Source: Bacteroidota bacterium (GTDB lineage Bacteria > Bacteroidota > Bacteroidia > AKYH767-A > 2013-40CM-41-45). Taken from it: 38,330 bases of DNA. Every line of letters starts with the position of its first letter. Within the stretch, counting starts at the first letter, position 1. Below, in pieces: positions 66 to 26,944 of the stretch. Made by a program: the position numbers and the translations under genes. The notes below the pieces were generated by a model. The model made no database searches and had not been told where the DNA came from. It saw nothing but the letters and a program-made list of their open reading frames with translations. The stretch lies in NCBI GenBank assembly GCA_026391945.1, contig JAPLDA010000107.1, positions 1 to 38,330 on the forward strand. The letters run 5' to 3'.

Positions 66-1826
66 GTGTTTTCCATTGATAACATAGTTTTAACCAAGGG
101 GCATCAATTGCTTTTTTTACTGTTCGCAGTTGTTGCATTAAACGTGAATACATTATTTCATGAATATGCGTTAGATGATATCGTGGTGATGACAGAAAAC
201 AGGCTGGTTCAAAAAGGGATCAGCGGAATTCCAGACCTGCTCACAACCGATTATGTTTATGGATATTCCACAAAAGCAAACATCCTCTCTTCTGTTCGTT
301 ACAGGCCGGTGTCGTTGATTTTATTTGCACTGGAATACCAGTTTTTCGGAGCGAATCCTTTTGTAAGTCACTTGATCAACTTATTATTATTTGCCCTTCT
401 GATATCGCTATTATACCAATTATTGAAAACGCATTTATTCCGGGATCAACATGCCTACTTGGCCTTTTTTAGCTGCCTTTTATTTGCCATACACCCGGTT
501 CATACGGAAGTAATTGCTAATGTAAAGAGTCGTGACGAACTCCTTACGTTTATTTTATTGATTGTATCGTTGCTGACGTTCATGAAATTTATCAAGCAGA
601 GTTCCCGAGGATCGCTCCTGTTGTCGTTATTATGTTTTATGCTTGCGCTGCTTACAAAGGAAACTGCAGTGACATTTATTGCAGTTGTGCCCCTGACTTT
701 GTATTTTTTTTTAAATCATTCTTTATACCAGTCACTTCGGCATTCGATTCCTTTTATACTTGTCTTCCTGGTATATATGGCCATTCGGTACCTGGTTGTC
801 GGGTTGAACTCCTACCCGGTAAATGATGTAACGAATGCTCCTTACTTATATGCAACGACTGCGGAAGCATTTGCCACCAAAATATTTATTTTATTTAAGT
901 ATGTCTGTTTGTTATTGGTTCCCCTGACTTTAACCACGGATTATGGTTACAATCAAATCCCTTATATCCGGTTGAATTCATTTCATTTTATTCTTTCATT
1001 TATCCTGATTGCCGGCCTGGTATTGTTTGCTGTTTATGCTTTCAAAAGAAAATCCATTTTCTCTTTTTGCATTTTATATTTTTTTGCTACCATTTCAGTC
1101 GGGACCAATTTGATTTTTGATTTTGGTACGACCATGGCTGAACGGATGCTTTTTCAGCCTTCATTGGCATTTTGCATCCTGATGGGTTTGTTATTCATCA
1201 AAATACATTACTCCTCAAAAATATCCTCAGCGATTTCTTTACTCCTGGTTCTGACCCTGTTCTCAATTAAGACGATTGCTCGAAACAATGAATGGAAAAA
1301 CAATGAAACGCTTTTCCTGGCTGATGTGATTTCATCACCGAACAGTGCGAGAATCAATTTGTACGCATGTGAACAGTACATCATGAAAGCAAACCGGGAA
1401 AACGATTTGCTTTTGAAAAAAGCCTTTCTCGAAAGGGCGATTGATCATGGTGAACAATCGTTCAGGATCTATTCAAAATTTGCTTACACCTATTTACGGC
1501 TTGGATTGGCTTATTATTATTATGGGGATTATTTTAAAACCGCTGATCTCTGGCTGCAGGCAAACAGGGCAGAGCCCGGCAATCCTGAAGTGCAAAAGTG
1601 GACAACCTTTTTAAGCGACCTGTTTTACAAGCAAGGCAATGGATTTTCGGAACACGACAAGAAGGAAGATGCCATCCGGTTCTATTTAAAATCAACTGAA
1701 CTCAATCCCGGCAACACGGATGCCTGGTATCATTTGGGCGCCGTTTATCTTGCAGCGAACGATACAGTCAATGGCTTGAAAGCATGGGAGGTTGTTAAAA
1801 AACTGGATCCTGGTCACCCGTTTTAA
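66..1826 (+). CDS. TMTC-like polytopic membrane protein with C-terminal TPRs (first tandem copy)
   Basis: This is a 586-residue inner-membrane protein with about ten hydrophobic segments over residues 14-410 and a soluble tail. The first outer loop carries an acidic pair in YALDD (D37, D38), then YRP (79-81), HPVHTE (143-148), SRDEL (155-159) and a KE pair (198-199). This layout resembles TMTC/DUF1736 proteins, eukaryotic members of which are protein O-mannosyltransferases using a dolichol-phosphate sugar. Residues from about 470 to 580 look like TPR helices. A glycosyltransferase role is inferred from family; the substrate is unknown. The start is a GTG. A weak -7-like GCCATTTG (39-46) lies 19 nt upstream, the usual spacing in this window. 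A close paralogue follows 41 nt downstream. Confidence 0.72.
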   Translation: MFSIDNIVLTKGHQLLFLLFAVVALNVNTLFHEYALDDIVVMTENRLVQKGISGIPDLLTTDYVYGYSTKANILSSVRYRPVSLILFALEYQFFGANPFVSHLINLLLFALLISLLYQLLKTHLFRDQHAYLAFFSCLLFAIHPVHTEVIANVKSRDELLTFILLIVSLLTFMKFIKQSSRGSLLLSLLCFMLALLTKETAVTFIAVVPLTLYFFLNHSLYQSLRHSIPFILVFLVYMAIRYLVVGLNSYPVNDVTNAPYLYATTAEAFATKIFILFKYVCLLLVPLTLTTDYGYNQIPYIRLNSFHFILSFILIAGLVLFAVYAFKRKSIFSFCILYFFATISVGTNLIFDFGTTMAERMLFQPSLAFCILMGLLFIKIHYSSKISSAISLLLVLTLFSIKTIARNNEWKNNETLFLADVISSPNSARINLYACEQYIMKANRENDLLLKKAFLERAIDHGEQSFRIYSKFAYTYLRLGLAYYYYGDYFKTADLWLQANRAEPGNPEVQKWTTFLSDLFYKQGNGFSEHDKKEDAIRFYLKSTELNPGNTDAWYHLGAVYLAANDTVNGLKAWEVVKKLDPGHPF

Positions 1827-1839
1827 AAAGAATAGTTAC

Positions 1840-1847
1840 CATCTTTG
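1840..1847 (+). promoter_or_regulatory. Candidate -7 element of second TMTC-like gene
   Basis: CATCTTTG differs at one base from the Bacteroidota -7 consensus TAnnTTTG and ends 20 nt before the ATG at 1868. No convincing -33 TTTG is seen. Confidence 0.4.
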
Positions 1848-1867
1848 CGTGAAATTATTTTGAGACC

Positions 1868-3667
1868 ATGAATTTCATTTTGACTGTTAAAAAGTACATA
1901 AGCAATACCCGGCACCAGGTGATGATCCTTTTGCTTCTGGCATTGGGTTTAAACATCAACACGCTGTTCAATGAATATGCACTGGATGACCTTGTTGTAT
2001 TAACCGGCAACTCGCTGGTTGAAAAGGGGATTAAAGGGATTCCGGAAATTCTTACGAAGGAATATTTTTATGGCCTTGATAAAAAGGAAAGCGATTTATC
2101 AGGCGGGCGCTACCGGCCGTTCGCATTGGTGCTGTTCGCCGTAGAGTACCAGTTTTTCGGGGCCAATCCGTTTGTCAGCCATCTGATAAATGTTCTTTTA
2201 TTTGTCTTGCTCATTTATTTATTGTACAGGTTGTTGCATGAACACCTGTTGCGTGACCGGCATGGATCGCTGGCTTTTTTCACGTGTCTTTTGTTTGTGG
2301 TTCATCCCATACACACCGAAGTCATTGCCAATGTAAAGAGCCGTGATGAACTCATCACATTGGTTTTGTTATTGACTTCGGCTTTTGCAATCATCAGGTA
2401 TGTTGAAAAACGATCGCCCATCCTGCTTGTTCCGGCGTTGCTCTGTTTTTTTCTTGCCTTGCTTACCCGTGAAAGTGCCGTACCATTCATCGGTATGGTT
2501 CCTTTGATTGCTTATTTTTTTTATCACCAGTCCGTAAAAAAATCGTTGCAGCTATCGCTTCCATTGATTGCTGTCTTTATTGTTTACCTCGGGATACGGG
2601 TTTCAGTTGTCGGATACGGCCATATTGGAAATAAAGACATCCTGAATTATCCTTTTGTGTATGCTTCACCAACCGAAGCCTTTGCCACCAAAGTTTTTTT
2701 AATGATTAAATATTTGTGGCTGCTGGTTTTTCCTCATCCGTTATCTTTTGATTATGGATACAATGAAATACCATACATCAGCATCGGATCGGTGAAGTTT
2801 ATTCTTTCTTTTATGGCGATCGCCGGTTTGCTTGCCTATGCCGTATTTACTTTTCATAAGAGAGCCTTATTTTCCTTCTGCATCCTGTTTTTTGCATTGA
2901 CGATTTTTTTGTTTTCAAATTTTGTGATCGACATCGGGGCGCCATTGGCCGAACGCCTTTTGTTCCTGCCTTCATTGGCTTTCTGCATCGTTATAGCAAC
3001 ATGGTATTTAAAATATGAAACAAAAAACATTGCCGTCACCAATGCCATCATGTTGATCGTCTTAATCCTGTTTTCAGTAAAGACCATACAAAGAAATTTT
3101 GAGTGGAAAAATAATGCAACACTGTTTTTTGCGGATGTAAAAACCTGTCCGAACAGCGTGAGAACAAATCTATATGCCGGTCAGCAGTGTCTTTTAAAGG
3201 CTAAATCGGAAACAGACAAGGCGATCAAGGCTGAATATTATAAAAAAACTATTTTCTATGACGAAAGAATTCTGAGCATCTATCCTCACTACCGGTATAT
3301 ATACGAAGACCTTGGGTTTGCCTATTTTGGTTTAAATAATTTCTGGAAGGCGGCTGATCAATGGTTACAGTCTTACAGGCTGGATCTTTCCAATCAGGGT
3401 GCAAAAAAAAGGGTGGATATGCTCAGTGATGTTTTCTATAATAATGGAAACAACAGTTACCGAACCGGGGCTGTTGATTCCGCTATCGTATTTTATAAGA
3501 AGGCTGTAGAGTTAAACGAAAACAATGTGGATGCCTGGTACAACCTGGGCGGATCCTATTTTTTAATCAACGATACCAAAAACGGAATTGAAGCCTGGCA
3601 GAATGTTCTCAGGCTTGCTCCCAATCATCCTTTGGACAGGGAGCGGTTTCAAAAAAAAACGAAATGA
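1868..3667 (+). CDS. TMTC-like polytopic membrane protein with C-terminal TPRs (second tandem copy)
   Basis: This 599-residue protein is a paralogue of the preceding gene, alignable almost end to end. It shares the early acidic pair (D40, D41), the GANPFVSHLIN block, HPIHTEVIANVKSRDEL and the EWKNN motif just before the soluble tail. About ten membrane segments are followed by TPR-like helices (about 480-590). It ends in a basic tail absent from the first copy. As a TMTC/DUF1736-like protein it may transfer a sugar from a polyprenyl carrier to exported proteins; this is inference. It has its own -7-like CATCTTTG (1840-1847), 20 nt before the ATG, so the copies may be transcribed separately as well as together. 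No acceptor protein or polyprenyl-sugar synthase gene lies beside them. Confidence 0.72.
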   Translation: MNFILTVKKYISNTRHQVMILLLLALGLNINTLFNEYALDDLVVLTGNSLVEKGIKGIPEILTKEYFYGLDKKESDLSGGRYRPFALVLFAVEYQFFGANPFVSHLINVLLFVLLIYLLYRLLHEHLLRDRHGSLAFFTCLLFVVHPIHTEVIANVKSRDELITLVLLLTSAFAIIRYVEKRSPILLVPALLCFFLALLTRESAVPFIGMVPLIAYFFYHQSVKKSLQLSLPLIAVFIVYLGIRVSVVGYGHIGNKDILNYPFVYASPTEAFATKVFLMIKYLWLLVFPHPLSFDYGYNEIPYISIGSVKFILSFMAIAGLLAYAVFTFHKRALFSFCILFFALTIFLFSNFVIDIGAPLAERLLFLPSLAFCIVIATWYLKYETKNIAVTNAIMLIVLILFSVKTIQRNFEWKNNATLFFADVKTCPNSVRTNLYAGQQCLLKAKSETDKAIKAEYYKKTIFYDERILSIYPHYRYIYEDLGFAYFGLNNFWKAADQWLQSYRLDLSNQGAKKRVDMLSDVFYNNGNNSYRTGAVDSAIVFYKKAVELNENNVDAWYNLGGSYFLINDTKNGIEAWQNVLRLAPNHPLDRERFQKKTK

Positions 3668-17370: not shown

Positions 17371-18045
17371 TTATTCGTTGGTGTTTTTTCCGGGGAGATG
17401 CTTGAGGACTTTTGCTTCGATGTAAAAAATTATTTCTTCCGCCACATTTTTAACCTGGTCGCCGGTACGTTCCAGTTTTCTGATGGCAGAGATGATGTGA
17501 AGACACTGGCCTGTTTTTTCGGTATTCGTCCGGATGATATCTTCCACCACTGAATTTGCATTTGCATTGATCTCATCCAGCGAATCATCTTTTTTAAAAA
17601 CTCCCCGTGCAAGTTTGGTATCTTCTGTATCGAAAGAAGCACGCACATCCGTGAGCATCGAAACGGCGATGTCAAACATATCTTCCAGCTTCGTCTGGTG
17701 AACCAGCTCTTTGTCGAACCGGCCGGAAGTTGCCGCAACGTAGCGGGAAATCCCGTCGGCGATGTCGCCAATCCGTTCCAGGTTGGAATTGATTTTCAGA
17801 ACCGCCAGCACAAATCTCAGGTCGATGGCAAGTGGATTAAAAAGAGCAAAAATGTTTTCACAGTCTTTGTCAATTTTCAGTTCGAGCGCATTCACCCTTC
17901 GTTCATTGAAATTGACTTCCCTGGCAATTTCAGAATCATTGTTCAGCAAAGCAGTTTTGCTTTTTTTCAATTGCGAGGTAACGAGGTCGAACATTTCGAG
18001 TGCTTCTTCTTTCAGTTGCTTGAGTTCGATGTCGAGATGTGTCAT
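17371..18045 (-). CDS. phoU: Phosphate transport system regulator PhoU
   Basis: This 224-residue all-helical cytoplasmic protein links Pst transporter activity to the PhoR-type kinase and represses the Pho response when phosphate is plentiful. It has the two repeated three-helix PhoU bundles. The metal-binding motif of the first is visible as INSNLERIGDIADGISRY and of the second as IRKLERTGDQVKNVAEEI, both E-R-x-x-D. Length is normal. It is the last gene of the porin-pstSCAB-phoU block, 65 nt after pstB. Three tandem 7-nt repeats lie just before its ATG. It is convergent with the 16781 gene; no strong terminator is seen in the 41-nt gap. Confidence 0.93.
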   Translation of the reverse strand: MTHLDIELKQLKEEALEMFDLVTSQLKKSKTALLNNDSEIAREVNFNERRVNALELKIDKDCENIFALFNPLAIDLRFVLAVLKINSNLERIGDIADGISRYVAATSGRFDKELVHQTKLEDMFDIAVSMLTDVRASFDTEDTKLARGVFKKDDSLDEINANANSVVEDIIRTNTEKTGQCLHIISAIRKLERTGDQVKNVAEEIIFYIEAKVLKHLPGKNTNE

Positions 18046-18052
18046 TTTTTTA

Positions 18053-18073
18053 GTATTGAGTATTGAGTATTGA
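18053..18073. repeat. Three tandem GTATTGA repeats before phoU
   Basis: Three exact 7-nt copies in direct tandem end 8 nt upstream of the phoU ATG, in the pstB-phoU gap. They are AT-rich and non-coding. Confidence 0.85.
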
Positions 18074-18110
18074 AGATTTGTGATTGTATTTTTTGTCTAA
18101 CATCTCCCTT

Positions 18111-18866
18111 CTATCCAAATCTTCCCGTCACATAACTCTGTGTTTTCGGGTCTTTCGGATTGGTGAAAATAGTTTGTGTGTGATCGTATTCGATGAGTTC
18201 ACCAAGGTAAAAAAATGCTGTCATGTCACTAACCCGTCCCGCCTGTTGCATGTTGTGAGTAACGATCATGATGGTGTATTTATTTTTCAGTTCATAAATC
18301 AACTCTTCAATTTTAGCGGTAGAAATCGGATCCAGCGCCGATGCCGGTTCGTCCATGAGAACAACGGAAGGCTCGATGGCGAGTGCACGTGCAATGCACA
18401 GCCGTTGTTGTTGTCCGCCGGAAAGTTCAAACGCGGATTTCTTCAGCTTGTCTTTTACTTCCTCCCATAAGGCCGCCTGTTTCAGGGAAGTCTCCACACG
18501 TTCTTCAATGAAATTTTTGTGGCTGATGCCATTTACGCGCAAACCATAAGCAACGTTTTCAAAAATACTTTTCGGAAACGGATTGGGTTTTTGAAAAACC
18601 ATCCCGACTTTTTTCCGGAGTTCATCCGTGCGCAAACCTTTTGTGTTGTAAATATCCTTGCCATCGAGCAAAACTTCTCCTTCGATTTTTACACCATCAA
18701 TCAAATCATTCATCCTGTTAAACAACCTGAGGAAAGTAGATTTGCCGCAGCCCGAAGGTCCAATCAAAGCCGTAACCGTATTGGATTTCACCGTCATGCT
18801 GATTCCTTTTAGCGCGTGAAAGTCATTGTAATAAAGATGGACGTTCTTCGATTCTATTTTAAACAT
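18111..18866 (-). CDS. pstB: Phosphate ABC transporter ATP-binding protein PstB
   Basis: This 251-residue ATPase powers high-affinity phosphate import through PstCA. Walker A is GPSGCGKST (36-44), the Q-loop lies in [17 protein letters not shown], the signature is LSGGQQQR (148-155), Walker B is [13 protein letters not shown] with D172-E173, and the switch histidine is in [10 protein letters not shown]. The FQKPNPFP-x-SIF-x-NV block is a PstB hallmark. Length is normal. It lies 87 nt downstream of pstA and 65 nt before phoU in the same direction. Confidence 0.97.
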
Positions 18867-18953
18867 ATTTTTTTCGGATGATCAGGAAGGAAAATTTCCT
18901 GCCGGTTTAATTTTTTTGCTGTTTTGATTCAGGCCATGACCTGATTGCAGAAC

Positions 18954-19808
18954 TCAATTCATTTTCACTTTTTTACTTAAGTACTTTCTCAATGCATTTG
19001 ATAGCAGGTTGAGAATTAAGACAAGCAGGACAAGGATAAGCGCCGTTCCGTAGGCCATGTCACGCGAGGCTTTGATATCGGTCCCGCTCGTTGAAATTAC
19101 ATAGAGATGGTAAGGCAAAGCCATCACCTGGTCGAAGATTCCATGAGGAAGTTTCGGGAGGAAGTAAGCAGCCACGGTGAATAAGATAGGAGCTGTTTCT
19201 CCTGCAACTCTTCCGATGGAAAGAATCAGCCCGGTGATGATGTTGGGTAAAGCCATTGGCAAAACCACGCGCCCGATGGTCTGAAGTTTCGTACCTCCCA
19301 AGGCCAGGCTTCCTTGCCGGAATGAATCATCTACGGCTTTTAAAGCTTCTTCCGTAACCCGGATGATAACAGGCAGAGCAAGCAAGCCAAGAGTTAAAGA
19401 GCCGGCAAGAATAGAGTCTCCGAATTTTAATTTGTTAACGAACAGTGCCATTCCGAACAAGCCAAAAACAATGGAAGGAATGCCGGCGAGATTATTCGTC
19501 ATCAGTTTAATGAGCCGTTTGATGAAACCATCTTTTGCATACTCATGAATGTAAATACCGGAAAGTACGCCAACCGGAAAAGCGAATAGCATGCTTCCCG
19601 CAACGAGGCATAACGTACCGATGATGGCAGGATAAATTCCGCCTTTCGTCATTCCTTCTTCCGGCATTTTGGTGATGAAGTCCCAGCTGATCACATGAAT
19701 GCCACGAACGAAAATAAATCCGAGTATTGAAAAAAGTATGGCCAGCACTCCGAAACTCAGCAGCCTGAAAACCCAGAAAGCAATTTTTTCTTTTATTCTT
19801 TTGTTCAT
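18954..19808 (-). CDS. pstA: Phosphate ABC transporter permease PstA
   Basis: This 284-residue inner-membrane permease has about six helices. The binding-protein-dependent transport signature is seen as EEALKAVDDSFRQGSLALGGTKLQTIGRVVLP, the EAA loop that contacts PstB. GVLSGIYIHEYAKDGF and NLAGIPSIVFGLFGMALF are typical of PstA. With PstC it forms the transmembrane channel. Length is normal. It lies 28 nt downstream of pstC. Confidence 0.96.
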   Translation of the reverse strand: MNKRIKEKIAFWVFRLLSFGVLAILFSILGFIFVRGIHVISWDFITKMPEEGMTKGGIYPAIIGTLCLVAGSMLFAFPVGVLSGIYIHEYAKDGFIKRLIKLMTNNLAGIPSIVFGLFGMALFVNKLKFGDSILAGSLTLGLLALPVIIRVTEEALKAVDDSFRQGSLALGGTKLQTIGRVVLPMALPNIITGLILSIGRVAGETAPILFTVAAYFLPKLPHGIFDQVMALPYHLYVISTSGTDIKASRDMAYGTALILVLLVLILNLLSNALRKYLSKKVKMN

Positions 19809-19836
19809 CCGTGTCTATTGATACAAAGTAATTTAA

Positions 19837-21042
19837 TTACCTGGTAAATTTTCTTTTGTTTGAAATGTATTCCACCCACATGTTAATCAGCATGGTGATG
19901 ACAAATAATATACAGCCCAAAGCAAACAATGCTTTGTAATGAACGCCGCCCTGCGAAGCTTCTCCTAATTCTGCAGCGATGGTTGCAGGAATGGTTCTGA
20001 CCGGCTGCAACAGGGAATGAGGCATGACGGCTGCGTTTCCTGTTACCATCAGTACAGCCATGGTTTCACCGATGGCACGGCCGATTCCTAAAATGGCAGC
20101 AGCGGAAATGCCGGACATGGAGTAGGGCAGGATGACACGGTGAATGGTTTGCCACCTGTTTGCACCTAAAGCGAGAGAAGCTTCTTTCATGGCTCTCGGC
20201 GTATTCCTGATCGCATCTTCTGAAACGGTGATGATGGTCGGCAATGCCATGATGCCAAGAACAATACTTCCAGCCAGCGCAGTTTCACCGACAGGCAAAT
20301 TAAATATTTTCTGTATTTCAGGAACAATGACGATCAACCCGAAAAAGCCATACACTACGGAAGGGATACCTGCCAGCAATTCAATAATTGGTTTGATGAT
20401 GTTCCTCACTTTTTCATTCGCTACTTCTGCCATGTAAATTGCCGTAGCAAGTCCGACGGGCAATGCAAAGAGGATGGCAAAAATACTCACCCAGAAAGTT
20501 CCCATGATCAAAGGAAGGACGCCGAGCTGCACAACCGGTTCTGCTGTTGGAAACCATTGTGTTCCGGAAATAAAATCGGGCAGGTTGTTCTTGTCGATTT
20601 TTACGACGGTGCCATGAAAATTTTTTGAAACATATTTTTCGTTGAAGACAGCAAGCAAGCCCGGAATGCTGTCAACCAGTTTGTCGAGTTTCTCAGGAAG
20701 AAATTCAAAGTTGCTGCCGATTTCTTCTTCTGAATAATAATTCGAAATGTCGTTGATGGTAAACAGAATGATGGAATCGTTTTTTCCGCCCACATCCTTC
20801 CAGTTGGTAATTTTCTGATCGAAGATGTCCTTTACCTGTGCCGGACTTAAATGGCCGACAGGATTGTGATGGTTAACGGTGATGGCATTTTTATTTTCTA
20901 CCGGTGACGTATTGAAAAGAGAAATCCCCTCCGAAAAAAGGAAAACAACAATGAGAAGGACGGTAAGACTGGTCACCGTTCCACTCAGCATCAAAATTCC
21001 TTCGATGAGTTTTTCAAAAAATCTTCTGAAGAATTTACTCAC
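19837..21042 (-). CDS. pstC: Phosphate ABC transporter permease PstC with extra PstS-like periplasmic segment
   Basis: At 401 residues this permease is longer than the roughly 310-320 typical of PstC. The C-terminal two thirds are normal: ATAIYMAEVANEKVRN, LAGIPSVVYGFFGLIV, and the EAA loop EDAIRNTPRAMKEASLALGANRWQTI. The extra length lies between helix 1 (about 15-40) and helix 2 (about 172). Residues 53-103 include LSPAQVKDIFDQKITNWKDV and VGG, closely resembling residues 109-157 of the neighbouring PstS. The phosphate-contacting SRETSSGT of PstS is replaced by TINDISNY, so phosphate binding by this segment is unlikely. It may dock PstS or act in sensing; that is inference. It lies 104 nt downstream of pstS. 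Confidence 0.95.
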   Translation of the reverse strand: MSKFFRRFFEKLIEGILMLSGTVTSLTVLLIVVFLFSEGISLFNTSPVENKNAITVNHHNPVGHLSPAQVKDIFDQKITNWKDVGGKNDSIILFTINDISNYYSEEEIGSNFEFLPEKLDKLVDSIPGLLAVFNEKYVSKNFHGTVVKIDKNNLPDFISGTQWFPTAEPVVQLGVLPLIMGTFWVSIFAILFALPVGLATAIYMAEVANEKVRNIIKPIIELLAGIPSVVYGFFGLIVIVPEIQKIFNLPVGETALAGSIVLGIMALPTIITVSEDAIRNTPRAMKEASLALGANRWQTIHRVILPYSMSGISAAAILGIGRAIGETMAVLMVTGNAAVMPHSLLQPVRTIPATIAAELGEASQGGVHYKALFALGCILFVITMLINMWVEYISNKRKFTR

Positions 21043-21146: not shown

Positions 21147-21971
21147 TTAATTCAATGAAATATAACCGACTTGTTCAACAATTTTTTGTCCTTCGGGAGA
21201 AAGAACAAAATCAACAAATGGTTTCACCATTTTTTCCTTGGCGGAAGGCACATAGTAATACAGCGGCCTTACAATCGGGTACGTTTTGTTTTTTGCATTC
21301 GCAACAGAAGCATTCACAAATGTTTTTCCTTTGTCGTAAGAAACCGCAAGATCTTTTACTTCTTTTGTCACATAAGCGAGTCCCACGTAACCAATGGCTC
21401 CTTTGGTCTGGCTGACGGATTGAATGATTGCTCCCGTAGCCGGCATGTTTAAAACAGAAGAAGCATAATTCTTCTTGTTCAATACATGGTCTTTGAAGAA
21501 CTCATAGGTACCGGAACTGGTTTCGCGCGAGTACACAACGATCTTAAGATCATCGCCGCCTACTTCTTTCCAGTTGGTGATTTTACCGGTATAGATGGCT
21601 TCGATTTGTTCGCGGGTAAGTTTGGTTACTTTGTTTCCGTTGTTGACTATTACAGAAAGTGCATCCCGTGCAATCGTGATTTCCTTATAAGCTTTTCCGG
21701 CATCCTGGAGTTTTAAACGCTCATCCATTTTCAACGAACGGGATGACATGGCGATATCGGTGGTGCCATCCATCAGTGCTGCGATTCCAACACCGCTTCC
21801 GCCTCCGATGACGGCGATGTTCTGACCGCTGTTCTTTTTCATGTAACTCTCTGCTTCTTTCTGGGAAAGAGGAAGTACCGTGTCACTTCCTTTGATGACT
21901 ATTTTTGATTGTGAAAATCCTGCCGCGACTGTCATGATTACAGTGGCAAGAGTGAAGATTGTTTTTTTCAT
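21147..21971 (-). CDS. pstS: Periplasmic phosphate-binding protein PstS
   Basis: This 274-residue protein has a signal peptide (residues 1-20, cleavage near AGFSQ). It captures phosphate in the periplasm and delivers it to PstCA. Ligand-binding motifs are present: KGSDTVLPL (27-35), GGGSGVGIAALMDGTTDIAMSSR (56-78) and SRETSSGTYEFF (148-159), together with ARDALSVIVN (101-110). The family segment LTREQIEAIYTGKITNWKEV followed by GG is also found in the PstC loop. No lipobox is seen. A direct repeat ATAACA-N5-ATAACA lies 59-75 nt upstream and is a candidate Pho box. The gene lies 77 nt downstream of the porin, with a possible internal promoter. Confidence 0.96.
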   Translation of the reverse strand: MKKTIFTLATVIMTVAAGFSQSKIVIKGSDTVLPLSQKEAESYMKKNSGQNIAVIGGGSGVGIAALMDGTTDIAMSSRSLKMDERLKLQDAGKAYKEITIARDALSVIVNNGNKVTKLTREQIEAIYTGKITNWKEVGGDDLKIVVYSRETSSGTYEFFKDHVLNKKNYASSVLNMPATGAIIQSVSQTKGAIGYVGLAYVTKEVKDLAVSYDKGKTFVNASVANAKNKTYPIVRPLYYYVPSAKEKMVKPFVDFVLSPEGQKIVEQVGYISLN

Positions 21972-21990: not shown

Positions 21991-21998
21991 TAAAGTTC
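21991..21998 (-). promoter_or_regulatory. Weak -7-like element upstream of pstS
   Basis: GAACTTTA on the minus strand has two mismatches to TAnnTTTG. It is listed because it sits 31 nt downstream of the ATAACA direct repeat, the same distance as at the porin promoter, and activator-dependent promoters often have weak core elements. Confidence 0.35.
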
Positions 21999-22029: not shown

Positions 22030-22046
22030 TGTTATCAAATTGTTAT
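22030..22046 (-). promoter_or_regulatory. Candidate Pho box upstream of pstS
   Basis: On the minus strand ATAACA-N5-ATAACA is a perfect hexamer direct repeat with an 11-nt period, the geometry used by OmpR/PhoB-family regulators. It lies 2 nt past the porin stop and 31 nt upstream of the -7-like element. Confidence 0.5.
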
Positions 22047-22048
22047 GT

Positions 22049-23539
22049 TTAGAATTTAATCTGTGCGCGAAGTGTGAACACATTGTCCTTGAGATCGCTG
22101 TTGTATCCTGCCAGGTTTTTACTCGTTTCATTTTTCACCATGTCATAATAGGCAGTTAGTTTTACGTTCGCATCCCAGCGGTAAGCAAGGCCGAGACCGA
22201 GTGTAGAATATTTAAGATCGGTTGCATTAAGCGCTTTGGTTCCGGCTTTAACAGCTTTGCCAATGTCATCGCCCTGAACATCTGTATTCGGATCGTACCA
22301 GTCATATTTTACAAGTACCTGCCATGGAGTTTGACCAATACTTTGTATGAAGTAGAAATATGCTCCGTTAAATTTTCTTTTATAAAGATCACTTGCAGCA
22401 GTTGTGGTAGTTGCTTTTGTAGTGGTAGTGGTAGAAGTAGTGGTTGATGTATGGGGGTTACCGAGTGAGTCGATCGTGGTAACGGAAGTTGAATTGGATG
22501 TTGACGTTGATGTGTAAGCAGTTGATGCTGCATCTGTCGGTGCAGAAGCAGGGCTTACGGATGAACCTGAAGTTCCGGGTTGTGTTCCCTGGATATATTC
22601 AGCACGAATCGTTGTAATACCGGCCATCCAATCAATACTCACTTGTCCGTCCACACCAAGGTAGTTTCTTTTTACTTCAGTCCTGGCAGCAATATCAGGA
22701 TGAATGGTTGTTTTATTAATATCAATTACAAAACCTTTTACACCCGCTGAATCAATTCCCGATTTATAAAGATTTGATTGATCCTGGCGGAATCCACCAT
22801 CGCAATACGACACTCCCAGGCCATATTTTACTTTCTCCGTTTTGTTTGAACGAGTCATTGAAAGATGCGCGATAAAATCCTTGAACTTATCGAAGTCACT
22901 TGTGTTGGCACCGGCACCCGGACCACCCGTCCCGTTAAACATTCCCGCTTCTAATTTCAACCAGTTCCAGTTGGAGATTTTTGGGCCTTGTATCGTAACC
23001 ATTGCTCCCAGGTCTCTTTCATTCGGGAAAATTGTTTGCGACATTCTTCCACGCTCAGGAGATTCGCGCAAACTTGATGAGTAACCGATCTCATATCCAA
23101 ACGGACGGTTTTGCATTCCGGCTGTCATTGAAAACCAACCGCTCCACGGATCTGTGAATTTTGCATACAAGTCTTTGATGGTTGCACCTTTTTCGCTTAC
23201 ATCAATTTGAAATACGTACTGTGAGGTGGACCATCCCAAATCGTTATTCGGACTATCGTACTGAACTTTCACCCTTCCCCTGCGAAGCATAAATCTTTTG
23301 TCAGCACCGCTGCCGAAATTTCCCCCGGCAAAAGAAGCTGTTCCTGCAGAATCAGTCAATTGAAACTGGGATTGGATGTAACCACTGATTTTGATCCGGC
23401 TGATGACATCCAGTGTTGATTGAATGGATGCCACTCTTCTGGTGAGTGTATCCATGGGTGATTCTGTTTCCTGGGCTGTTGCTTTCAGTGCAAAAGCGAA
23501 AGCGATGATCAGAAGGTTTCGTGTTAAGCGTAGATTCAT
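22049..23539 (-). CDS. Phosphate-selective porin O/P-type outer-membrane protein
   Basis: The protein is 496 residues from the chosen ATG, with a signal peptide MNLRLTRNLLIIAFAFALKA cut near ATAQ. A short coiled-coil-like region (DTLTRRVASIQSTLDVI) precedes the barrel. The barrel has RFMLRRGRVKVQYD, QNRPFGYEIGYSSSLRESPERG and an alternating C-terminus ending in KF, as in the Porin O/P family. Residues about 319-384 form a Ser/Thr/Ala-rich insert, unusual and probably an outer loop. Its position before pstS suggests phosphate passage. An ATG at 23575 would add 12 residues, but the -7 (23559-23566) would then lie inside the coding region, so 23539 is preferred. Confidence 0.88.
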   Translation of the reverse strand: MNLRLTRNLLIIAFAFALKATAQETESPMDTLTRRVASIQSTLDVISRIKISGYIQSQFQLTDSAGTASFAGGNFGSGADKRFMLRRGRVKVQYDSPNNDLGWSTSQYVFQIDVSEKGATIKDLYAKFTDPWSGWFSMTAGMQNRPFGYEIGYSSSLRESPERGRMSQTIFPNERDLGAMVTIQGPKISNWNWLKLEAGMFNGTGGPGAGANTSDFDKFKDFIAHLSMTRSNKTEKVKYGLGVSYCDGGFRQDQSNLYKSGIDSAGVKGFVIDINKTTIHPDIAARTEVKRNYLGVDGQVSIDWMAGITTIRAEYIQGTQPGTSGSSVSPASAPTDAASTAYTSTSTSNSTSVTTIDSLGNPHTSTTTSTTTTTKATTTTAASDLYKRKFNGAYFYFIQSIGQTPWQVLVKYDWYDPNTDVQGDDIGKAVKAGTKALNATDLKYSTLGLGLAYRWDANVKLTAYYDMVKNETSKNLAGYNSDLKDNVFTLRAQIKF

Positions 23540-23558
23540 GTTTGTTTTATTTTGATGG

Positions 23559-23566
23559 CAAAGTAA
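23559..23566 (-). promoter_or_regulatory. Candidate -7 element of the porin-pst block
   Basis: TTACTTTG on the minus strand has one mismatch to TAnnTTTG and ends 19 nt upstream of the ATG at 23539. A TTTG lies upstream at 23590-23593 with a 23-nt spacer, longer than usual. Confidence 0.5.
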
Positions 23567-23597
23567 GCATGCCATTGTTAGGTGATTTTCAAATCCA

Positions 23598-23614
23598 TGT
23601 TAAATTAAGATTAA
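23598..23614 (-). promoter_or_regulatory. Candidate Pho box upstream of the porin
   Basis: On the minus strand TTAATC-N5-TTAACA gives two related hexamers with an 11-nt period. It lies 31 nt upstream of the -7, exactly as the repeat before pstS does, and resembles the TTAACA-N5 boxes of Bacillus PhoP. Confidence 0.45.
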
Positions 23615-24497: not shown

Positions 24498-24603
24498 GTA
24501 TGAATCCGTTCTTACGGTTTGAACTGAAACCTGTTTTGTTTTCATTTGATCCGTCTCCTGTTGAAGAGTAGAGTTCATGAAATCATGGCCATAATCTTTT
24601 CTT

Positions 24604-24611
24604 TACTTTTG
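24604..24611 (+). promoter_or_regulatory. Candidate -7 element of the response-regulator gene
   Basis: TACTTTTG exactly matches TAnnTTTG, 49 nt upstream of the ATG at 24661. No -33 TTTG or TTAACA repeat is seen at the expected distances. Confidence 0.55.
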
Positions 24612-24660
24612 CTTAACATTCAGTTGATGTTGCTCCTCTATCTTCAACAAAAATTTTAAT

Positions 24661-25350
24661 ATGAAGAATGGTCCTTTAAAAATATTGTTGGTGGATGATG
24701 AACCGGATATCCTCGAGTTCATGGAGTATAACCTGAAGAAGGAACACTATGAAATTTTTAAAGCCGGCAACGGGAAGGAGGCGATAGCCGTTGCAAAAAA
24801 AAACCATCCCGACCTGATCATTCTCGATATAATGATGCCGGAAATGGATGGCATCGAAGCCTGCCGCACGTTGCGTGAACTTCCGGAGTTTAAGGAAACC
24901 ATGATTGTTTTCCTCACCGCACGCAACGAGGACTATTCACAGGTTGCCGGTTTTGAAGTCGGCGCTGATGATTACATCACCAAACCCATCAAACCGAAAG
25001 TGCTGATCAGCCGGATACAGGCGTTGTTCAGAAGGTATCATGGAAAAGATCAAACGGATAAATCGAAAATCATGATCGCCGGCGATCTCCGGATCGACCG
25101 TGAACAGTACCTCGTGTACCAGGCGGGAAATAAAATTGTTCTTCCGAAAAAGGAGTTTGAACTTCTTTCTCTGCTGGCTTCCAAGCCCGGGAAAGTTTTT
25201 ACGCGTGATGAAATCCTCGAACGTGTGTGGGGAAACGACATCATCGTGGGTGACCGCACTATCGATGTTCACATCCGGAAACTGCGGGAGAAGCTGGGAG
25301 AAGATCACCTAAAAACCGTGAAGGGAATCGGTTACAAATTCGATTTTTAA
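24661..25350 (+). CDS. PhoB-like response regulator (OmpR family)
   Basis: This is a 229-residue DNA-binding response regulator. The receiver has acidic residues D12-D13, phospho-acceptor D56 in DLIILDIMMPEMDG, T86 in FLTAR and K108 in TKPIKP. The C-terminal winged helix (about 130-229) has PKKEFELLSLLASKPGKVFT, VWGNDIIVGDRTIDVHIRKLREKLG and VKGIGYKF, standard for OmpR/PhoB proteins. It is followed by a histidine kinase and sits next to the pst block, so it is the likely phosphate-response activator. The direct role is inferred from context, and phoB is a reasonable but unproved symbol. Confidence 0.95.
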   Translation: MKNGPLKILLVDDEPDILEFMEYNLKKEHYEIFKAGNGKEAIAVAKKNHPDLIILDIMMPEMDGIEACRTLRELPEFKETMIVFLTARNEDYSQVAGFEVGADDYITKPIKPKVLISRIQALFRRYHGKDQTDKSKIMIAGDLRIDREQYLVYQAGNKIVLPKKEFELLSLLASKPGKVFTRDEILERVWGNDIIVGDRTIDVHIRKLREKLGEDHLKTVKGIGYKFDF

Positions 25351-25405: not shown

Positions 25406-26452
25406 TTGAAAAATCCAACTCCCCGAAGTCTCGCCCTTATCGCAGCTCTGGTGGCTGCTTTCATCGTTGTTGTCGCAGAGTTCATTACGAACGTTTCACC
25501 TTATTTTCACAAGAACTGGATTTCACTGCTGGTGGTTTTCGCGATTGCTTTCATCACCACCTTCATCATTTTTTATTTTCTTCTTGAAAAATTCATTTAC
25601 CGGAAAATTAAACTGATCTACAAGACGATTTCAAATTTCAGAAGTGCAAAAGAAAAATCCACCGGGATTCACCTGGGTGATGACATCATCGGCGGCGTGA
25701 GCCAGGAGGTGATGGACTGGCAGAAAAACCGCAGCGATGAAATCACGGAGTTGAAAAGGATGGAAAGTTTCAGGAAGGAATTTTTGGGGAATGTTTCACA
25801 CGAACTCAAGACGCCGATTTTCAATATCCAGGGATACATCCATACGTTGCTCGAAGGCGGAATTGATGACAAAGAAGTGAATCTTCATTACCTGCAGAGA
25901 GCTTCTAAATCGGTTGATCGTTTATGCCTGATCGTGGAAGACCTTGAATCCATCAGCAAACTCGAAGCCGGTGAAATGATTCTGGAACAACGCGTGTTTG
26001 ATATGCATGAGCTGGTGCACGATGTTTTTGAATCGATGGAAATGCAAACTGTTGAAAAGAAAATCAAGTTGGGTTTTAAAGAAGAAAGCGACCGGTCGTT
26101 TTTTGTGTATGCTGATAAGGAACGAATCCGGCAGGTGCTGGTAAACCTCATCGTGAACTCGATCAAATACGGAAAAGAAAACGGTTTGACGCTGGTTGGT
26201 TTTTATGACATGGATGAAAATATCCTCGTTGAAATTACCGACAACGGAATCGGAATTGAACAGGAACACCTGCCGCGATTGTTCGAGCGTTTTTACCGGG
26301 TAGATAAGAGTCGTTCGCGGGAAGCGGGAGGAACTGGTTTGGGCCTTGCGATTGTGAAGCACATCATCGAAGCGCATCAGCAGTCCATTAACGTTCGCAG
26401 TACATTTGGAATCGGAACCACGTTTGCATTTACGCTGAAGAAGGCGAGATGA
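25406..26452 (+). CDS. PhoR-like sensor histidine kinase
   Basis: This is a 348-residue membrane kinase. Two helices (about 8-29 and 39-61) are joined by a very short periplasmic loop, so extracellular ligand sensing is unlikely. A short linker (62-120) without a clear PAS domain follows. HisKA has FLGNVSHELKTPIFNIQGY with H132. The ATPase domain shows N-box VNLIVNSIKYGKENG, G1 EITDNGIGI, F-box LFERFYRVDKSRSREAGG and G2 GTGLGLAIVKHI. The start is a TTG, the only initiator upstream of the first helix, with a -7 20 nt before it. It likely phosphorylates the preceding regulator. With little periplasmic domain, input probably comes from PstSCAB/PhoU. Confidence 0.92.
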   Translation: MKNPTPRSLALIAALVAAFIVVVAEFITNVSPYFHKNWISLLVVFAIAFITTFIIFYFLLEKFIYRKIKLIYKTISNFRSAKEKSTGIHLGDDIIGGVSQEVMDWQKNRSDEITELKRMESFRKEFLGNVSHELKTPIFNIQGYIHTLLEGGIDDKEVNLHYLQRASKSVDRLCLIVEDLESISKLEAGEMILEQRVFDMHELVHDVFESMEMQTVEKKIKLGFKEESDRSFFVYADKERIRQVLVNLIVNSIKYGKENGLTLVGFYDMDENILVEITDNGIGIEQEHLPRLFERFYRVDKSRSREAGGTGLGLAIVKHIIEAHQQSINVRSTFGIGTTFAFTLKKAR

Positions 26453-26471: not shown

Positions 26472-26834
26472 TTATGATGCCAGCGCTTCGATGTAATTCT
26501 CTTCGCTCAGTTGAAAAGGAATCCCGATTTTTTTCGCTTCAAGAGTTTCAAACAGGTTTTCTGCAAACTGGTGTTCGCTGACCGGGTCGCTGTAAATATT
26601 TCCGAAAATATTCGACATCGTGCTGGAGAAAACCGCAATGCAAACCGAATAGTTGTCGGCCGAAAATTTCAGATCCATCAGTGAAGACAAGGTACTAAGC
26701 CCTTCTCCTTTGGAAGCGCTGATGATCCCGGTTTTAAAATCAGCATACTGAACCCGGTAGTTCATTTTCTTCAGCACCGATTCGCAGTAGCTGAATACGA
26801 TGGGCAAGTTGTAGTTGTACAGGTTGATTTTCAT
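26472..26834 (-). CDS. Uncharacterised small soluble protein
   Basis: The protein is about 120 residues from the ATG at 26834 (MKINLYNYNLPIVFSYCESV). A longer form from 26873 adds 13 residues that look non-conserved. It reads as a small alpha/beta protein: helix (8-21), strand NYRVQYADFKTGIISASKG (about 25-43), then strands around DLKFSADNYSVCIAVFSSTM and a C-terminal helix. No signal peptide, membrane segment or catalytic motif is seen, and I do not recognise the family. It is convergent with the histidine kinase and 110 nt downstream of another unknown gene on the same strand. Confidence 0.65.
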   Translation of the reverse strand: MKINLYNYNLPIVFSYCESVLKKMNYRVQYADFKTGIISASKGEGLSTLSSLMDLKFSADNYSVCIAVFSSTMSNIFGNIYSDPVSEHQFAENLFETLEAKKIGIPFQLSEENYIEALAS

Positions 26835-26944
26835 GATTGTTTTTGATGTAAAATAATACACACCATGTTTCATGAAAATGACCGGGATGTTAAAGAATCG
26901 TCAACAGTTCCGGGGTAATTTTATCTCTAATCGATACGATGAAA

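Follow-up and report, generated by a model that had tools for sequence, protein, structure and literature searches.

The direct repeats upstream of pstS and of an adjoining porin gene, in the 38,330-nt window (the whole stretch of DNA analysed here), are very probably Pho boxes. On the sequence evidence, we give a probability of about 0.9 to their being operators from which the adjoining PhoB-like regulator (24661-25350) would activate a sigma-A promoter. The repeats are confirmed as more than chance in their context. Spacing, octamer phase and gene association all argue for the Pho-box identity first proposed in the initial annotation; its 11-nt repeats and their coupling to a -7 element also stand, whereas its number of repeats and its account of the regulator promoter do not. 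The features concerned are as follows.

17371-21042, minus: pstC, pstA, pstB and phoU, identified by Pfam and NCBIfam
21147-21971, minus: pstS (TIGR02136, 266.8 bits, above cut-off)
21991-21998, minus: proposed pstS -7 octamer GAACTTTA, uncertain, 31 nt after the pair
22030-22046, minus: pair ATAACA-N5-ATAACA upstream of pstS, the distal half-sites of a row whose half-sites 3 and 4 are unrecognisable
22049-23539, minus: OprO/P-like porin, with a likely start at ATG 23539, not 23575
23559-23614, minus: porin Pho array with -7 octamer, predicted to serve the porin-pstSCAB-phoU operon; half-sites TTAATC (23614-23609), TTAACA (23603-23598), TTGAAA (23592-23587) and CTAACA (23581-23576), then N9 and octamer TTACTTTG (23566-23559)
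24591-24646, plus: array before phoB; ATAATC, TTTACT, TTAACA (24613-24618), TTGATG, N9 and octamer TATCTTCA (24639-24646)
24661-25350, plus: PhoB-like response regulator (Response_reg and Trans_reg_C)
25406-26452, plus: PhoR-like histidine kinase (HisKA and HATPase_c), with PnpS/PhoR as best NCBIfam matches, below their cut-offs
26475-26834, minus: orphan 120-aa protein, a predicted Pho regulon member
26849-26904, minus: array before the orphan gene; TTGACG, TTAACA (26893-26888), GTCATT, GAAACA, N9 and TTATTTTA (26856-26849)

Array geometry across Bacteroidota

Exact DTAACA-Nk-DTAACA pairs were counted at k = 0 to 27 in 50 pstS and 33 porin upstream regions, window included, from 44 Bacteroidota pstS loci. 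Spacer 5 occurs in 12/50 pstS and 15/33 porin regions, and the corresponding counts are 7 and 6 for spacer 16 and 3 and 4 for spacer 27; all remaining spacers have counts of 0-2, and the reverse complement of the same regions is near zero. Over whole loci and both strands, 48 pairs have spacer 5, 19 have spacer 16 and the rest number at most 5 each. The DTAACA pairs are rows of repeats with an 11-bp pitch and one fixed direction. With enrichment limited to spacers 5, 16 and 27, the 11-nt period earlier seen as fitting a regulator of the OmpR/PhoB type is upheld.

The coupling to the -7 element was assessed by picking pairs with at most one mismatch blind to the octamer and then seeking a strict TAnnTTTG downstream. 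Pairs lie 9 (6 sequences), 20 (5), 31 (9), 42 (3) or 53 (2) nt before it, with one off-phase case each at 19 and 37. Counted per sequence, 17/19 have pairs only at 9+11n nt, 31 being the commonest distance (binomial P 3e-16, a value that assumes independent sequences, which related genomes not quite are). The initial annotation had suggested searching relatives for an enriched 6-5-6 repeat at a fixed distance from TAnnTTTG; the outcome is positive, and its claim of coupling to the -7 element holds in this phased form. Because 31 = 9 + 2 x 11, the pair first noticed corresponds to the first two half-sites in a row of four, the last of which is separated from the octamer by 9 nt. In an alignment model of 55 sites, the octamer is preceded by TTAACA-like units at -48, -37, -26 and -15, counted from the octamer, and is followed by a C. 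A TTTG-like -33 element is not seen in this model, and half-site 3 occupies its expected place.

Arrays of the window

The coordinates and spacings given earlier for both 6-5-6 repeats agree with the sequence. The minus strand reads ATAACA-ATTTG-ATAACA at 22046-22030 and TTAATC-TTAAT-TTAACA at 23614-23598, and from the end of the pair to the octamer the distance is 31 nt in both cases, the octamers being GAACTTTA (21998-21991) and TTACTTTG (23566-23559), respectively. The -7-like elements lie where they had been placed, but they fit TAnnTTTG imperfectly: of the six fixed positions, one is wrong at the porin and two at pstS, and the phoB octamer TATCTTCA also has two mismatches. The visible pairs are indeed 11-nt direct repeats, yet each makes up the two distal half-sites of a four-unit array rather than the complete operator; at the porin, the fourth half-site CTAACA (23576-23581) had been overlooked.

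Profile R1, a sequence-only, gap-free alignment of 38 sites that excludes window sequence, has its top two matches in the 3.1-Mb genome at the porin (27.6 bits, E 9.9e-6, rank 1) and at the orphan gene (21 bits, E 0.0013, rank 2, matched at 26846-26901 minus). The phoB array scores 12.3 bits (24592-24644 plus) and ranks six. For a 64-nt model whose training sites, those of the R1 alignment, lie outside the window, the four best of 76,534 window positions are the porin (33.2 bits), the ORF at 26834 (28.9), phoB (11.4) and pstS (5.2); the next independent position reaches 4.7 bits. Among 2000 dinucleotide shuffles of each upstream region, none scored as high as the porin, orphan-gene and phoB arrays, and three did so for pstS. 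The sequence of these arrays, their conservation, spacing and specificity and their association with genes are direct observations.

Two of the four arrays lie where none had been described. The initial annotation saw neither repeat at the promoter of the regulator, but phoB is preceded by a diverged array (24591-24646 plus), which recurs in the same register in family genomes L234-L238 and L241, with at least six copies. It also missed the array before the orphan gene at 26834. Arrays likewise stand upstream of relatives of this gene in three loci (L254, L255 and L256), and the protein has relatives in another four genomes from the order. The protein matches no family in Pfam or NCBIfam; its AlphaFold model (pLDDT 84) has a distantly BamC-like/KA1-like fold. 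A weak paralogue is encoded at C85:12004-12258 (L258) in the same genome, about 1.7 kb from an OmpR-type regulator at C85:10039.

The pstS site is the weakest of the four (R1 4.8 bits) and is probably a weak internal site, with the main promoter at the porin. It may even be a decaying or accidental repeat, with pstS transcribed mainly via the porin promoter, a reading that is possible though somewhat doubtful. The low R1 score, poor half-sites 3-4 and octamer, and the absence of an array counterpart in 5/7 family genomes examined are in keeping with decay or accident. Both hexamers, however, are exact, the site is the window's fourth-best array (3/2000 shuffles), and strong pstS arrays occur in many other Bacteroidota. 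The closest family genome (L213) also keeps the pair, as GTAACA-ATTTG-ATAATA, spacer included; the octamer is not conserved there, GTTCTTTG standing 9 nt after the pair and hence in another register.

The regulator and its proposed mode of action

The nearest regulator had been called PhoB-like, and this description is apt. It combines Response_reg with Trans_reg_C, and its two best NCBIfam matches are the PhoB equivalog models TIGR02154, the best, and NF053854, although it scores below the cut-off of each (225.3 against 296.2 bits and 218.2 against 270 bits). It is accordingly named PhoB-like and is not filed as a member of the PhoB equivalog. Its DNA-binding domain aligns with that of E. coli PhoB (1gxp, 3t72); for the full-length protein, RegX3 gives the best alignment. 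This regulator is likely the protein that reads the arrays.

In the mechanism we propose, phosphate scarcity would lead the PhoR-like kinase to phosphorylate the PhoB-like regulator. Each operator would consist of as many as four TTAACA-like half-sites, arranged head to tail every 11 bp, with 9 nt between the last of them and the sigma-A -7 octamer TAnnTTTG, which is C-extended in relatives. Once bound to this row, the phosphorylated regulator would recruit RNA polymerase to a promoter that has no visible -33 element. Predicted targets in the window are the porin-pstSCAB-phoU operon and the orphan 120-aa gene (both strong), phoB (moderate, as autoregulation) and pstS (weak, internal). In E. 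coli, the direct repeats to which PhoB binds lie 10 bp ahead of the -10 (PMC1906773), and the protein makes contact with sigma region 4 (as described in PMC3973317). As the Bacteroidota octamer spans -12 to -5 (PMC9723704), the N9 spacer sets the last half-site at a place equivalent to that of E. coli PhoB, and by analogy the regulator may be a class-II activator of the same kind. Which protein binds, that it activates, that it does so in response to phosphate and where transcription starts are points that we infer.

Several findings count against the Pho-box reading: the poor array fit (5.2 bits) and unconserved octamer of the pstS site, the two sub-threshold PhoB equivalog scores, and five OmpR-type DNA-binding domains in the genome besides that of the regulator. 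Further, OprP of F. johnsoniae is not induced by Pi starvation (PMC8115612), yet an R1 match (E 0.042) lies upstream of the F. agrisoli porin.

With six such domains in the genome, another OmpR-family regulator might read the arrays, the more so as 6-5-6 geometry is common to the boxes of this family, for example the PmrA box CTTAAG-N5-NTTAAT (PMC3973317), and one of these other regulators has a TTAATC-type array nearby. We consider this improbable, as the arrays concentrate at phosphate genes and phoB, and phoBR adjoins pst in the window and in many relatives. The TTAATC-type array, at C5:3772-3830 (L114) in the same genome, reads TTAATC, TTAATC, CTAATT, TTAATG, N9 and TATGTTTG, with the same geometry and another half-site; it precedes an outer-membrane-efflux-like gene, near the OmpR-type regulator at C5:5224.

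Repression by the PhoB-like regulator, rather than activation, would be compatible with the position of the array taken by itself, but is very unlikely: the array stops 9 nt upstream of the -7 element and leaves it uncovered, the activating E. coli Pho box is similarly placed, 10 bp before the -10 (PMC1906773), and in F. johnsoniae Pi starvation induces matching gene classes (PMC8115612). That the repeats are a chance product of AT-rich promoter composition is contradicted by the shuffles and by the specificity of spacer, strand and phase and can practically be dismissed, even though the hexamer pair with at most one mismatch (WTAACA-N5-WTAACA) is no commoner genome-wide than its backwards control (54 matches against 67), a result for which the pair alone was rejected as a genome-wide predictor.

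The Pho-box reading is consistent with the genes behind R1 matches elsewhere. A match is found in 52/61 relatives at E <= 0.05 and in 36/41 Flavobacterium-group genomes at E <= 0.02, and 16/29 of the best relative sites examined precede a porin, pstS or phoB. Further genes behind matches encode PitA (PF01384), PlcP-like (PF12850), PI-PLC (PF16670), PhoX (PF05787) and DUF47 (PF01865) proteins and TonB receptors. Sites in the Flavobacterium group and F. agrisoli precede genes for TonB receptors (one adjoining phoB), DUF47, a PF04101 glycosyltransferase, PhoX, PlcP-like and PI-PLC proteins and lipoproteins; those in Bacteroidales precede pstC, a PHO4-family permease gene and phoB. Some sites in these regulon genomes are R1 training sites, and the remainder alone are independent. 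In F. johnsoniae, phosphate depletion is reported to induce most of these gene classes (PMC8115612), a comparison made by gene class, with sites from other Flavobacterium genomes. Non-Pho neighbours in the same loci were discarded as a negative control; they are contaminated, because the high scorers among them (DUF47, TonB receptors, lipoproteins) are themselves likely Pho genes.

Known Pho operators and genomic setting

The operator type is already known, and the arrays are very probably its Bacteroidota form. The PhoP box of Bacillus subtilis consists of TT(A/T/C)ACA repeats and resembles the arrays in its half-site and in its multi-repeat layout upstream of the core promoter; it differs in serving a standard -10 promoter. 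The cyanobacterial SphR Pho box, CTTAACCT, has 8-bp repeats with a 3-bp linker (PMC1906773) and shares a nearly identical core, (C)TTAAC, the 11-bp pitch, at least three repeats and pst targets. Unlike this box from another phylum, the Bacteroidota array is tied to the -7 octamer at N9. In E. coli, the Pho box consists of 11-bp units of the CTGTCAT type and lies 10 bp ahead of the -10 (PMC1906773, PMC4415409); the 11-bp direct repeats and the nearly equal distance to the core promoter are alike, whereas the half-site, the basic box of two units as against four here and the core element differ. The likeness to the PmrA box (PMC3973317) is confined to the OmpR/PhoB-family 6-5-6 arrangement, with a different regulator, half-site and genes. 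The octamers downstream of the arrays resemble that of the Bacteroidota sigma-A promoter (TAnnTTTG; PMC9723704), with the mismatches given above, but the promoters of the arrays have no visible -33 element.

R1 also matches pstS loci outside Bacteroidota. Four TTAACA-like units at 11-bp pitch occur at pstS loci of Dehalococcoidia (L060, L064 and L068), Stygiobacter (L057) and Zixibacteria (L055), and in a few non-Bacteroidota cases, including the three Dehalococcoidia loci, a TA-rich -10-like element follows after N9. We lean towards a phylum-wide Pho operator of four 11-bp half-sites, a fixed N9 and the divergent -7 octamer, in which the array replaces the -33 element; the same four units and N9 seem also to occur with an ordinary -10 in other phyla (few cases), in which case the geometry of activation would have outlasted a change of core promoter.

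No published Bacteroidota Pho box or operator sequence was found in the literature searched, most subscription journals lying outside its scope. Phosphate regulation in the phylum has so far been described by omics (PMC8115612) and by one PhoB EMSA, in which PhoB of B. fragilis binds its pst promoter, the box being unnamed there (PMC3547664). Arrays at one fixed promoter distance across Bacteroidota would make the phosphate response predictable from DNA. Once validated, the array model would list candidate Pho genes in any Bacteroidota genome, among them genes for TonB receptors and lipoproteins and those of the orphan 120-aa family; it also offers a direct test of a classical class-II activator on a -7 octamer promoter.

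The porin itself matches nothing in Pfam, Porin O/P (PF07396) included; among six relatives, one matches that family at 1.9e-7. Its predicted fold is a beta-barrel closest to OprP/OprO, the two top Foldseek matches, at E about 1e-13, being OprP (2o4v) and OprO for a model of moderate confidence (pLDDT 67). The N-terminus from ATG 23539 is signal-peptide-like; the longest ORF (22049-23575, minus) begins at 23575, within the promoter region. A long loop rich in Ser/Thr is a further feature of the porin. At its N-terminus, PstC (19837-21042, minus) has a binding-protein domain resembling PstS (aa 51-168, PF12849, 1.5e-7), and ORFs of similar length with a PF12849 match adjoin pstS in family genomes. 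Besides the PhoB-like regulator and PhoR-like kinase, the plus strand of the window carries a Sel1-repeat gene and, at 66-3667, two tandem genes for similar large membrane proteins, each about 590 aa long.
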